Assembly (NCBI GenBank): GCA_949284715.1
Contig: CASDWH010000001.1
Coordinates: 1 to 51,278, forward strand
DNA from: an uncultured bacterium
GTDB taxonomy: Bacteria; Cyanobacteriota; Vampirovibrionia; Gastranaerophilales; Gastranaerophilaceae
Direction: 5' to 3'
Length of the DNA stretch: 51,278 nucleotides
Part shown: piece after piece, positions 44,187 to 48,268 of the stretch
Position numbering within the stretch: the stretch's first letter is position 1
Layout: the number at the start of each line of letters is the position of its first letter
Notes under the pieces: generated by a model
Seen by the model: the letters and a program-made list of their open reading frames with translations, nothing else
What the model was told of the DNA's origin: nothing
The model's database searches: none
Translations under genes and position numbers: made by a program

Positions 44187-45758
44187 CTATTCTTTTACAA
44201 GAAATTCAGGATTTTCTACTCTGACCGCAAAGTATGGTTTATCCTTGCCTTCTTCTTTTAAGAACATTACAAACTCTTTATCAAAATGATATTTTCGTCC
44301 GATTTGAGGAGCCAAAGACATTCTCATTATTGCTAATGCAGCTTCACTCTTTAAAGTTCCGCCTTTATTATCCATATTGAACTTTATGGTCTGCAATGCC
44401 TGAGTAATGATTTTGTTTGTACCTTTTATAGTTTTTCCGCACAACTCATCATAAGATATAGTTTTATCAATCTTAAAGTTCGGCACCATCAGGCTGTCCT
44501 CTTTTGCAAACTTTTCTGATACATCCTGCTGTGTTACATATAGATACAAGTCCTCAAAATTATCTTTTTTGTCCGTACGGAAAAGGATAACATCCTCTTT
44601 CTCTTTTGTTGTAAGTTTAACTGCATACTCTTCCGGAGAATTGTAGAAAAGAACATGAACATTCTTTCTCAGCTTTCTTTCACTCTCTTGATTTACACCA
44701 AAATATTTAACCTTTTCAGTACTTCCGTTAAACGGTGCTGAGGTAAGTTTATCAAACGGAGTTTCAAAATTGAAGTCTTTCTTTAACATTGCATAGAATA
44801 AATACGAATTCTTTGCACCCCAGTTAATAGTATCTAAGATATCGCTTGTTTCGTTAAATTTTTGTTCTATAGCACGTTCAATTTTCCTCTTTAACGACTT
44901 ATTGATTTTGCCATAAGTTGCATAATAAGAATCTTCATTTAACAAATCAGATGTATACAGCTTTTTGTTTAACTCATTAGCAACCGGCGGATTACCTCCG
45001 GCTAACAAAACCGGCCCGTGAGTAACTTTATCCATAAAAGTATTCCATACAAGCTGGAAAGTTATACACCAGAGTTTATTTTTTATAGCTTCATACCCGG
45101 ATTCCGTTTTAGTAATTGCTGCCTGCTGAACAGCGGCTTCCTGTTCAGCCGCCTGTACTTTATCCCCTGAACTAACAGGCTGAACTACCACATCACTTTC
45201 AGATTTTACGGCATTTTCCTGCGCCGGCTCAACAGGCGTTTCCTCTACTGTATTTGATACAGGTTTTTCTTCCTCAACTACGGAAACAGGTTCAGCTTTT
45301 GCATTTTCAGCCGGTTCTGCTTTTTCTTCTAAACTATTTACGGCAGATTCCTCTGCTTCTATACTCTTTGCAGATGTTTCCTCAACTGCTGTATTAGTTT
45401 CCTTTTCTTCATCAACAGACGGTGTATTAATTTTTTCATCATTTGACACTGCCGGTTTTTCACTATCCTCCAGCACAAGTTCTTTCTCTGATACCGGTGT
45501 CGCAGATTCTAACTCTACTTCCTTTGTTTCTTTTGTATTTACATTATCCTGTTCATCATACGGCGGAACAACATGCCGGACATCCGATATAGGTTTATAT
45601 TGAGCCTTATCTGCCGGCTGCTGCACAGGCACATTCGGCGCCGCCTGCGGCTGTGCATTCTGCTGTCCATTGGTCTGTTCTGCTGCCTGTACCGTCATTA
45701 AGCCCACGGATAACACAAGCAAAACACCCAGTAAAGATGTAACCTTCTTAATTCTCAT
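44187..45758 (-). CDS. Secreted protein with serpin-like C-terminal domain
   Basis: The start is ATG 45758, with GAGGAG upstream and a signal peptide (RIKKVTSLLGVLLVLSVGLM, cleaved near VQA). Residues 30-215 are a disordered Glu/Pro/Val/Ala linker. Residues about 235-523 can be laid over the serpin fold in order: NSYLFYAMLKKDFNFETPFDKL at the 'NAIYFKG-W...PF' place, VPNFKID at 'PKFKIE', NKGGTLKSEAALAIM at the reactive-loop hinge (usually EEGTEAAAAT), and VMFLKE...AVRVENPEF at the 'PFLF-I...GRV-NP' end. The hinge is imperfect, so inhibition is uncertain. It lies 62 bases after the AF-x-G membrane protein gene. The serpin assignment is inference by eye. Confidence 0.55.
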   Translation of the reverse strand: MRIKKVTSLLGVLLVLSVGLMTVQAAEQTNGQQNAQPQAAPNVPVQQPADKAQYKPISDVRHVVPPYDEQDNVNTKETKEVELESATPVSEKELVLEDSEKPAVSNDEKINTPSVDEEKETNTAVEETSAKSIEAEESAVNSLEEKAEPAENAKAEPVSVVEEEKPVSNTVEETPVEPAQENAVKSESDVVVQPVSSGDKVQAAEQEAAVQQAAITKTESGYEAIKNKLWCITFQLVWNTFMDKVTHGPVLLAGGNPPVANELNKKLYTSDLLNEDSYYATYGKINKSLKRKIERAIEQKFNETSDILDTINWGAKNSYLFYAMLKKDFNFETPFDKLTSAPFNGSTEKVKYFGVNQESERKLRKNVHVLFYNSPEEYAVKLTTKEKEDVILFRTDKKDNFEDLYLYVTQQDVSEKFAKEDSLMVPNFKIDKTISYDELCGKTIKGTNKIITQALQTIKFNMDNKGGTLKSEAALAIMRMSLAPQIGRKYHFDKEFVMFLKEEGKDKPYFAVRVENPEFLVKE

Positions 45759-45820: not shown

Positions 45821-47356
45821 TTATACCGTCTTACCATTAATTTTTCTTTCCCTGCGCGCGTTATACTTTGTCCACTCCGCATTTATTACAGGAAGCGCTA
45901 TACCCAATGCCAGTGCTGAATACAATATTCCGGATGCATGTGCAAGGTTGAGTTTCCAGATATTCTTTTTCGCAAACTTTTCACCCTTAGCGGCCAGTTC
46001 ATTATGAGTTTTTAAACTTAAGTCATTAAGCCAGTGTTTAACACCTTTACCCTCTTTTTTTATATTAAAAAGATTTTCCCGCTTTTTATCAAGAAAATTA
46101 GCAACCCCCTTTGCCGCAAATCCGCCAAATACAAGCCAGTTTAAGAACCCGTTATAATCTCTGAATACCGTTTCCCGAAGTTCTGTAGAATTATCCGATG
46201 CCATAAAACGCCCTACTATATTCGCACCGTATACAGTCTTAATCGCGTTTCCGCTGGTTACAGGGCCGGTAAACTCAAGCTTCCTTACAAAATCTTTCCA
46301 ATTCTTAACACGCATTACAGCTAGCAGCATCCCTATCATGCCGGCCGATGCTGCAATTTTTTTTGCTGTAAGATATTTATCCTTCTTTTGAACCGCACCG
46401 CAGCCGCGGGTTTCATAATCCACATCACCAACAAACCCCTTTTTTCCGGTTCTTTTTTCTGTAATCTTTCTATTTATATATTGATTAGTAAGCCCTAAAA
46501 TGCACGATGCACTAAGTGCGCCAAAAATCTTCAGCTTATTGATTTTTGCAAGTTTTGCAAGCGCTTGAGCTGGTTTTACTTTATTATTCGTATAAACGTC
46601 ATTTCCCATATTGTAAGCATCGCGGAGTATATTTTCTAATTTATCAGCAATTTTGTTATCTCCTATGGTTAATGTTGTATCCCGCCCTGCGCCAAGCGCA
46701 TTCGTTAGCCGAATCTCCATTATACGTAAAATATTACCTTTATCTTCACGGGCTATTTTTTTATCATCAATGATTTTAACAAGCGTATCAATAAACCCTT
46801 CTGCTGTTTTTAAATTATTTTCAATACCTTTATATTCAGGATTTTTCCATTTTATTTTTGCCCATCGGTCTTTATCTATCCAATTAACTTTATCCCAGTC
46901 AATTTCGCTGAATTTATTCACCTTACACCCGTCAACCCCAGAAAGATTATTAAAAATATTTCTTGAATACCCTTCAAGATTTTTGCCGCCCACCCACGCA
47001 GCTTGAAGTGCGGCTAAAGAATCTTTGGAGTACCAGCTATTTGAATTAATACTTACCTCCGGCATTACCCATTTTGATGCAAAATATGAAATCAGGCTTG
47101 CAAACACTCCGGCAGATAGACAATTAATAAATGTACCCTCCATTTCTCTTGAAAGAGTTTCAATCCCCGCATATTTATTACGCTGGGTTGCATCAATATA
47201 GGCTCTCGGCAGTGACATCGGGCCGACATCTAATACCACCGCATTAATCATTTCATTGGTATCAAGAACCCTCATTACATTAGTGAATGTCCCGTCTAAA
47301 ACGCCTTTAAAAGCCTGATTCCTATTTTCTGTCTGTATTCTGTTGATTGTTACCAC
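45821..47356 (-). CDS. Membrane protein with N-terminal AF-x-G motif, unknown function
   Basis: About 511 residues. The N-terminus (after GTG 47356) reads VTINRIQTENRNQAFKG, then VLDG, matching the small protein at 21463 (AFNG-IID). Hydrophobic segments lie near residues 80-100, 285-305, 340-358, 400-425 and 468-490; between them are basic loops. There is no signal peptide and I recognise no domain. An alternative GTG at 47368 overlaps the AGGAG ribosome binding site, so 47356 is preferred. The gene lies directly after the predicted serine leader/terminator and before the serpin-like gene. Confidence 0.7.
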   Translation of the reverse strand: MVTINRIQTENRNQAFKGVLDGTFTNVMRVLDTNEMINAVVLDVGPMSLPRAYIDATQRNKYAGIETLSREMEGTFINCLSAGVFASLISYFASKWVMPEVSINSNSWYSKDSLAALQAAWVGGKNLEGYSRNIFNNLSGVDGCKVNKFSEIDWDKVNWIDKDRWAKIKWKNPEYKGIENNLKTAEGFIDTLVKIIDDKKIAREDKGNILRIMEIRLTNALGAGRDTTLTIGDNKIADKLENILRDAYNMGNDVYTNNKVKPAQALAKLAKINKLKIFGALSASCILGLTNQYINRKITEKRTGKKGFVGDVDYETRGCGAVQKKDKYLTAKKIAASAGMIGMLLAVMRVKNWKDFVRKLEFTGPVTSGNAIKTVYGANIVGRFMASDNSTELRETVFRDYNGFLNWLVFGGFAAKGVANFLDKKRENLFNIKKEGKGVKHWLNDLSLKTHNELAAKGEKFAKKNIWKLNLAHASGILYSALALGIALPVINAEWTKYNARRERKINGKTV

Positions 47357-47386
47357 CTGCTTAACCACTCCTTTTGTCTGCTCACT

Positions 47387-47418
47387 AAAAAAGCCCCGCT
47401 TGTTTTTGCGAGGCTTTT
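47387..47418 (-). terminator. Terminator/attenuator hairpin before the AF-x-G membrane protein
   Basis: On the minus strand AAAAGCCTCGC (47408-47418) pairs with GCGGGGCTTTT (47389-47399, one G-U), followed by T residues to 47387. A second GCGGGGC lies upstream at 47461-47467 inside the leader ORF and could pair with the same GCCTCGC, giving an antiterminator. The hairpin ends about 20-30 bases before the gene start. Confidence 0.8.
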
Positions 47419-47439
47419 GAAATCTATATCCGTTAAAAA

Positions 47440-47523
47440 CTACACACCGAAAATCATCCTGCCCCGCAAGTACTTAGAGGAGGATGAGGATGATGAATTT
47501 GTATAAACAGTGTATAATTTCAT
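47440..47523 (-). CDS. 27-residue leader peptide with seven consecutive serines
   Basis: The ORF reads MKLYTVYTN, then seven Ser (codons 10-16: TCA TCA TCC TCA TCC TCC TCT), then KYLRGRMIFGV and TAG. GAAAGGT precedes the ATG, and a consensus promoter lies just upstream. A terminator follows 22 bases after the stop. The layout is that of a ribosome-mediated attenuator leader. The Ser-codon segment AUCAUCCU (47487-47494) can pair with AGGAUGAU (47453-47460), next to the antiterminator strand. Alternatively it is a short, highly expressed peptide gene with its own terminator. Confidence 0.65.
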   Translation of the reverse strand: MKLYTVYTNSSSSSSSKYLRGRMIFGV

Positions 47524-47542
47524 ATCTTTACCTTTCAAAATA

Positions 47543-47572
47543 AGTATACGCCTGTTTATAAAATATTGTCAA
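47543..47572 (-). promoter_or_regulatory. Near-consensus promoter of the serine leader
   Basis: On the minus strand TTGACA (47567-47572), 18 bases, then TATACT (47543-47548). The start site would be near 47536, about 13 bases before the leader ATG. It is the only perfect -35 box I found upstream of a gene in this window. Confidence 0.8.
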
Positions 47573-47584
47573 TAGTTATATTAA

Positions 47585-47616
47585 CTAATATTAATATCTG
47601 GAATTGGTGCAATAAA
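47585..47616 (+). repeat. 32-bp direct repeat, left copy, flanking the RAYT gene
   Basis: These 32 bases recur exactly at 48296-48327, 711 bases further on, so the transposase gene and its palindromes lie between two identical copies. Confidence 0.9.
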
Positions 47617-47623
47617 TTGCACC
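47606..47623 (+). repeat. REP palindrome, forward copy
   Basis: GGTGCAAT-AA-ATTGCACC is an 8-bp inverted repeat with a two-base loop, followed by CTAC. The same element occurs inverted at 47693-47710 and forward at 48271-48288. The forward/inverted pair before the gene has the arrangement of a REPIN. Confidence 0.85.
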
Positions 47624-47692
47624 CTACTAATACCAGTTAAACAGCACAGAAAAACACACTATAAACTCTTAAATATATGCAGAAAATTGTAG

Positions 47693-47710
47693 GGTGCAAT
47701 TTATTGCACC
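47693..47710 (-). repeat. REP palindrome, inverted copy
   Basis: This is the reverse complement of the 47606 copy, including the GTAG flank (47689-47692). It lies 18 bases before the transposase ATG. Confidence 0.85.
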
Positions 47711-47728
47711 TTAATATAAAATTATTTT

Positions 47729-48268
47729 ATGAGTAATTATAGACGTTATTTTTTCAATTCACTTAATCCGGTCTTTATAACATTTGTTACTTACGATAGA
47801 AGAAATATCTTAATTCCCAATATAGATATTTTTAGAAATTGTTTTAGACTTGCGAAGTCCAAATATAGATTTGAAATTATTGCAATAACTGTATTAGAAA
47901 ATCATTGTCATATAATAATATCACCTAAGCAGCCCAGCGATATTCCTAAAATAATACGAACAATTAAGTATAATTTTTCTACAAATATTCCTGATAAATA
48001 TATTTGCAATAATTTATCACAATCAGCAATTAAAAGAGGAGAAAAAGGGATTTGGCAAAGAAGATATTATGATCATATTATAAGAGATGAAAAAGATTTA
48101 AATAGACATATAGACTATATTCACTATAATTCATATAAGCATTATAATATCGCACCAAAAGATTGGTTGTATTCCTCATTCCCCAAATTTGTCCAAAATA
48201 ATTATTATGATATAAATTGGTGTAATTTGGATGATAAATATAAAATTACACAACTTAATTATGAATAA
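47729..48268 (+). CDS. REP-associated tyrosine transposase (RAYT)
   Basis: This Y1/HUH-family single-strand DNA endonuclease is related to IS200/IS605 transposases and acts on REP palindromes. The 179-residue protein has the HUH-type motif HCH (His59, His61) in ENHCHIIIS and the family signature WQRRYYDHIIRDEKDL with the catalytic Tyr (112 or 113), then HIDYIHYNSYKH. Family-like palindromes lie just before and just after the gene, as expected for a RAYT with its own targets. No ribosome binding site is visible before the ATG. It is very AT-rich compared with its neighbours. Confidence 0.9.
   Translation: MSNYRRYFFNSLNPVFITFVTYDRRNILIPNIDIFRNCFRLAKSKYRFEIIAITVLENHCHIIISPKQPSDIPKIIRTIKYNFSTNIPDKYICNNLSQSAIKRGEKGIWQRRYYDHIIRDEKDLNRHIDYIHYNSYKHYNIAPKDWLYSSFPKFVQNNYYDINWCNLDDKYKITQLNYE

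Follow-up and report, generated by a model that had tools for sequence, protein, structure and literature searches.

A conserved, probable transcription attenuator read through serine or cysteine codons, ahead of an orphan membrane-type protein gene in Gastranaerophilales

The leader described here occupies positions 47387-47572, minus strand, of the window, by which we mean the whole 51,278-nucleotide stretch of DNA that was analysed. As read from the sequence, it opens with a promoter at 47543-47572 (TTGACA at 47572-47567, an 18-base spacer and TATACT at 47548-47543) and a ribosome-binding site, AAAGG (47531-47535), followed by a leader ORF of 27 codons, MKLYTVYTNSSSSSSSKYLRGRMIFGV, which extends from the ATG at 47523 to the TAG at 47440. 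Codons 10-16 of this ORF (47476-47496; TCA TCA TCC TCA TCC TCC TCT) are seven UCN serine codons, designated the regulatory run on the grounds of the sequence and of the UCN-only bias described below. Downstream of the run lies the core of segment 2, GCGGGGC (47461-47467), which is adjoined by AGGATGAT (47460-47453) and is a leader copy of the 3' arm of an intrinsic terminator. The terminator itself, AAGCCUCGC-loop-GCGGGGCUUUUUU on the minus strand, is built of segment 3, GCCTCGC (47408-47414), and of a 3' half at 47387-47399 that comprises segment 4, GCGGGGC (47399-47393), and six T residues (47392-47387). Segment 3 is common to the terminator (3:4) and to an alternative antiterminator helix (2:3). 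The initial annotation had listed the promoter, the ribosome-binding site, the 27-codon ORF with its seven serine codons and the hairpin with its T-run, and all of these are present at the stated positions; the GCGGGGC duplicate within the leader ORF is likewise exact, and its GCCTCGC partner lies at 47414-47408.

Folding of the 150-base leader yielded a minimum free energy (MFE) structure of -44.6 kcal/mol (z -5.2), better than 200 of 200 shuffled sequences, in which the leader GCGGGGC is paired by serine codons and the terminator is formed. The strongest 1:2 hairpin joins UCAUCCUCCUCUAA (47487-47474) to UUGCGGGGCAGGAUGA (47469-47454). Pairing of serine codons with segment 2, as initially proposed, is therefore present in the MFE structure; the segment involved, however, is the late serine codons (segment 1, 47474-47487) and not AUCAUCCU alone. 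The assignment of segment 1 as the partner of segment 2 in ribosome-free RNA draws on this structure and on the 5'-shuffling test described below. An outer stem (47436-47521) closes the leader by pairing the start codons (47521-47508) with 47449-47436. The element UUUUGAUGUGUAGUUUU (47436-47455 in the window) is able to pair with the leader start as this outer stem; relatives retain it in the stretch that separates the leader from the terminator, including cases in which it falls outside the ORF. Beyond the promoter, at 47600-47720 and 47729-48268 (plus strand), an IS200-type Y1 transposase gene (REP-type) adjoins palindromes, GGTGCAATAAATTGCACC. In one relative (L004), repeats resembling these occur in several copies ahead of the leader.

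The gene that follows the terminator (45821-47368, minus strand) encodes a 515-aa orphan, predicted to be a helical membrane-type protein, and is the sole neighbour always found with the leader. Its start is probably the GTG at 47356 rather than 47368, judging from the orthologue alignment and the spacing of the SD site. The protein carries an F-x-G motif near the N terminus and several moderately hydrophobic helices, and its structure was modelled as helical with confidence (pLDDT 83.9). This model gave no more than weak PDB matches, with Foldseek E values of 0.1 and above and a VIA Z of at most 6.3, to a membrane pyrophosphatase, the latter lying within the chance range for helical proteins; a fold is therefore neither claimed nor excluded. 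A second gene (44187-45758, minus strand) encodes a product with a signal peptide and is specific to the genus, being present in 5 of 6 same-genus loci and in no other locus; it is possibly co-transcribed with the 515-aa gene. The other neighbouring genes differ between relatives. Neither the 515-aa protein nor the second gene product had a sequence match in Pfam, NCBIfam, PADLOC or PDB, and family searches placed the former neither among known serine or cysteine genes nor in a resistance family. The serpin-like nature initially ascribed to the second product consequently finds no sequence support; in the comparison with serpins its structure model was poor (pLDDT 36). The description of the downstream genes held for a predicted membrane-type orphan with an F-x-G motif, while the regulated unit would be this single protein, and an "envelope" role is only a prediction. 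Similar F-x-G motifs (FKG, FGG, FRG) occur near the N termini of many otherwise unrelated proteins of the lineage (L138 6505-9525, L143 and ORFs of G000:C14), and are perhaps a targeting signal. Paralogues of the 515-aa protein (at G000:C14 and at that locus in relatives) are without such a leader, and a search of the window's own genome for the patterns TCN x6 and TGY x4 revealed no convincing second short ORF with a serine or cysteine run.

To follow the leader through evolution, the orthologous locus was gathered from 80 other genomes by means of the downstream protein alone, so that the leader itself was not selected for. The named-genome relatives of this protein are nearly all Candidatus Gastranaerophilales, bacteria akin to the cyanobacteria, from animal guts, and leader and gene occur together in 7 of 7 genomes of the window's genus. 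A short ORF with a serine run (67 loci) or a cysteine run (12 loci) stands ahead of the gene in 79 of the 80; it starts with ATG in 78, and the 79th (L142) has a GTG-started leader with a CCCC run. The run, the leader copy and the terminator recur together in these same 79 loci, which is far beyond chance. No locus keeps the terminator while lacking the run or the copy, a combination named in the initial annotation as evidence against attenuation, and the sole exception among the 80 (L074) has lost both leader and terminator. Upstream of position 4001 in L074 the promoter-like pair is kept, and expression there is probably constitutive. The runs read SSSSSSS, SCSSSSS or SSSSSCS within the genus and SSS up to ten serines in other gut clades; deeper branches carry CCCC, and a locus from another family of the order (L012) carries CCC. 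Asn and Lys interrupt the run in places, and the C-terminal half of the leader is missing in many relatives.

Promoter-like pairs scoring at least 9/12 were found upstream of 80 of 80 leaders, compared to 45% of shuffled sequences, with a spacing of 18 in 56 of the 80. SD-like sites precede 43 of 80 leaders. Some 15 relatives (among them L085, L087, L091 and L118) have just 6-7 bases between the -10 box and the leader ATG, and their leader mRNA therefore looks leaderless. On the gene tree, a quick tree with the outgroup on one long branch, a single change separates cysteine-run from serine-run leaders (branch SH-aLRT 99%); together with the cysteine-run outgroup this suggests that the cysteine run is probably ancestral. 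The serine run originally described is borne out in 67 of 80 loci, but as the ancestral run appears to be of cysteine, the device is better regarded as reading Ser/Cys codons than as purely a serine one.

The core of segment 2 varies between clades (GCGGGGC, CGGGACUU, CGGAACUU, CGAGACUU, CAGAGCUU, GAGGAACUU and UUAAGGACUU), and the terminator changes in step. Counted on an alignment of 41 sequences, 96% of cells in the 2:3 helix are paired, with 15 double-changed cells compared to 2.8 in shuffles (0 of 500 shuffles as high), whereas sliding the helix out of register left only 20-56% of cells paired. In the 3:4 helix, 99.7% of cells are paired, with 26 double-changed cells compared to 4.5 in shuffles. 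These counts in part ignore relatedness. Across 79 non-redundant leaders, the mean energy of the duplex was -12.8 kcal/mol between own-species partners, -10.4 kcal/mol for swapped partners and -5.7 kcal/mol for shuffled leaders, and the own-species mean was matched by none of 20,000 permutations (p<5e-5). In view of this swap test and of the variety of core sequences, inheritance alone is an unlikely cause of the covariation. The comparison of related genomes suggested in the initial annotation has thus yielded conserved runs and compensatory changes in leader copy and terminator, as its trp/his-type four-segment scheme predicts. For 1:2, the pairing used in the alignment (CAAGU/ACUUG) showed covariation no higher than in shuffles, so that segment 1 probably differs between clades.

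Switching between these helices was modelled by folding each leader to the end of segment 3, i.e. before segment 4 exists. In serine-type leaders the median modelled probability of the 2:3 helix was 0.02 in free RNA; a ribosome placed on the first codon of the run raised it to 0.95 and one on the last codon to 0.78, and a ribosome at the stop codon gave 0.00. Cysteine-type leaders behaved similarly. In the model the folding thus switches in the manner that attenuation demands. Shuffling the sequence 5' of segment 2 raised the free-state probability from 0.27 to 0.86 (p=1e-13), which in this model indicates that the 5' part is adapted to holding segment 2. The corresponding values for the window leader were 0.00 (free), 1.0 (first serine codon), 0.0 (last serine codon) and 1.0 (stop codon), suggesting that stalls early in the run are those that matter and that the setting in this genus would depend on quick release of the ribosome at the stop codon.

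The family was also searched, in 146 genomes, with a covariance model of the leader. This returned the orthologous leaders and weaker matches ahead of a different orphan family (IISAIGNNSSxYPLxxRD...; G000:C36:39395-40639, which is L202, and L166, L170-L176 and L187-L205), whose leaders carry histidine runs; the leader of the member in the window's own genome (G000:C36) is MKTGNQNRLHHHHHLG. Matches that were weak and covered only part of the model (positions ~75-147) were disregarded, being probably plain terminators. In 24 histidine-type leaders the histidine codons are CAU (106) and CAC (9), and own duplexes averaged -10.3 compared to -7.3 for swapped ones (p<1e-4). A terminator covarying with the leader was found outside the window's genus; none was found within it. 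These leaders point to a separate, putative His-codon attenuator ahead of another orphan family, and support the use of attenuators outside biosynthesis in this lineage. Upstream of distant homologues of the histidine-type family (L206, L209) there is no run; a conserved peptide ending in R-x-A-N-L-x-W-G-L-stop is found instead.

The choice of codons within the runs is markedly restricted, being almost exclusively UCN and UGY. Serine is encoded by 327 UCN and 5 AGY codons, whereas the AGY share of serine codons is 25% in genes of the window and reaches 36% among the orthologues of the 515-aa gene (binomial p=1e-55, a nominal value because the leaders are related). UCC accounts for 60% of UCN codons in the runs compared to 8% in the gene, and may be favoured there also for its pairing with GGGA. 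When B. subtilis is starved of serine, ribosomes become denser at the four UCN codons and at the Cys codons but not at AGC or AGU, and the slowing at Cys codons was put down to cysteine being made from serine (PMC3862929). By analogy, the interchange of serine and cysteine together with the UCN-only bias would be the pattern expected of a serine-shortage sensor of the B. subtilis type.

The amino acid supply of the genus was examined in the same context. No match was obtained in any of the seven genus genomes for serC (TIGR01364, the only serC model used; control positive in 11 of 14 genomes) or for hisD (PF00815; control positive in 13 of 14), and by its gene content the genus looks like a serine and histidine auxotroph. 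A cysE match above the cut-off was present in six of the seven, the seventh giving weak partial matches only. From the missing serC and the presence of cysE we infer that serine is largely imported and that cysteine is made from it; GlyA could be a source of some serine. The cysteine-type leader was considered as a marker of cysteine auxotrophy and set aside as a trend only, with cysE in 11 of 11 serine-type and 3 of 7 cysteine-type genomes, two of the four cysteine-type genomes without it being incomplete.

Taken together, these results make it highly likely that the leader is a ribosome-mediated transcription attenuator read through Ser/Cys codons. A ribosome would translate the 27-codon leader right behind the RNA polymerase. 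When serine is plentiful it would clear the run and leave, upon which segment 1 would pair with segment 2, segment 3 would be free for segment 4, and transcription would stop at 47387. When charged tRNA-Ser (UCN) is low, or tRNA-Cys in the relatives, the ribosome is expected to pause on the first codons of the run and to cover segment 1, leaving GCGGGGC free to pair with GCCUCGC; this 2:3 pairing would block the terminator, and the 515-aa gene would be transcribed. Since cysteine is made from serine and the genus seemingly is without the phosphoserine route, the signal is most likely serine shortage.

In one alternative explanation, the run would report on the modification of tRNAs and not on their charging. 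UCN serine and UGY cysteine codons are read by tRNAs carrying (ms2)i6A at position 37, and a loss of MiaA/MiaB activity (through iron, redox or SAM) would slow both codon sets, in keeping with the Ser/Cys interchange, the avoidance of AGY and the fact that every codon of the run begins with U. We nevertheless regard this as improbable: a single mutation converts UCC into UGC, so that the interchange needs no special cause, the Phe, Tyr, Trp and UUR Leu codons are also U-initial and form no runs, and the second attenuator of the lineage, which uses His CAY codons, does not fit. Marginally less probable again is a response to general translation stress or to a ribosome-targeting antibiotic, as in erm and ABC-F leaders, which also combine a short ORF with a terminator (PMC4191407, PMC4335068); here the Ser/Cys run is the most conserved feature of the leader, and the target does not belong to a resistance family. 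It is very unlikely that the leader ORF encodes a peptide with a function of its own, for instance a Ser/Cys/Thr-rich precursor of a modified peptide, the terminator being incidental. Ser, Cys and Thr do interchange as in azole-type precursors (PMC2887384), but Asn and Lys break the run, many relatives have lost the C-terminal half, the need to pair with the terminator constrains the DNA, and the neighbouring genes vary. Terminators and A+T-rich spacers are common, but the covariation already contradicts an ordinary terminator of a preceding transcript beside an unregulated low-complexity run, and the codon bias and the conservation in 79 of 80 loci speak against it too; the probability of this reading is negligible.

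Throughout an entire order of uncultured gut bacteria, a probable attenuator reading Ser/Cys codons is conserved ahead of an orphan protein, and it provides the first handle on the function of that protein, which is predicted to be on under Ser/Cys shortage. That the protein helps to acquire or husband the scarce amino acid is a weak inference, a guess from its regulation. As a broader and tentative proposal, one we think may well be wrong, the Gastranaerophilales would have lost certain amino acid biosyntheses and re-used leader-peptide attenuation for a superfamily of membrane-type proteins peculiar to the lineage, every member of which would respond to an amino acid that has to be imported (Ser/Cys here, His at G000:C36); the proteins would form a new class for amino acid acquisition or starvation, and the run would have changed once from Cys to Ser, leaving the RNA logic unchanged. 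Together with the His-codon leader, the present system suggests that attenuators are retained in auxotrophs, where they are put to use outside biosynthesis.

To our knowledge, no serine-codon transcription attenuator has been described, and a search of the literature found none; the system is real, conserved and, as far as the literature was searched, a previously undescribed candidate for attenuation through Ser/Cys codons. Rfam gave no match to the T-box model at gathering or at E<=1, and the best matches to His_leader, Leu_leader and Phe_leader all fell below gathering (24.4/49, 19.5/50 and 22.7/55 bits, respectively). The mechanism is nonetheless of a known kind. As in trp/his-type systems, a leader ORF with a run of one amino acid stands under its own promoter, an intrinsic terminator precedes the gene, and the 2:3 antiterminator excludes the terminator, as indicated by covariation and by the cognate-duplex test; blocking of 2:3 by a 1:2 helix is favoured by the energetics, the helix as drawn being without covariation. 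The trp/his/leu/phe attenuators of Proteobacteria (Rfam RF00514, RF00512, RF01859) share the leader codon run, the leader copy of a terminator arm, the mutually exclusive helices 2:3 and 3:4, together with a 1:2 helix that here is predicted, and the U-tract terminator, but here the codons are Ser/Cys, the sequence is unrelated, the phylum is another and the target is not a biosynthetic operon. In such attenuators the controlled gene usually, though not by definition, serves the metabolism of the amino acid that is read, whereas the target here is an orphan family. Cys codons in a short ORF with an intrinsic terminator are also found in uORFC-8-2, the cysS leader of Rhodobacterales, which in contrast has two tandem Cys codons and stands before a cysteine gene (PMC8632094); the Cys-run leaders of actinobacterial cys operons likewise have such codons in a short ORF, but precede cysteine genes and have no clear terminator (PMC1262725). 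A Met transporter riboswitch in an auxotrophic Lactococcus lactis is, in what PMC7058034 relates of it, similar in that leader RNA senses shortage of a required amino acid, and differs in its RNA mechanism and in having a known transporter as target. SinR/Sda of Bacillus subtilis share the sensing of serine through UCN and not AGY codons, as well as the slowing at Cys codons, but in B. subtilis the codons form part of the controlled coding sequence itself, whose translation they reduce, whereas here leader codons would raise the transcription of another gene (PMC3862929, PMC11925247). What is new is the amino acid that is read, the documented switch of that amino acid and the orphan target: the system shows neatly how an attenuator can exchange one sensed amino acid for another while its RNA changes in compensation, and it echoes, as an independent product of evolution, the preference for UCN over AGY codons in the serine sensing of Bacillus.
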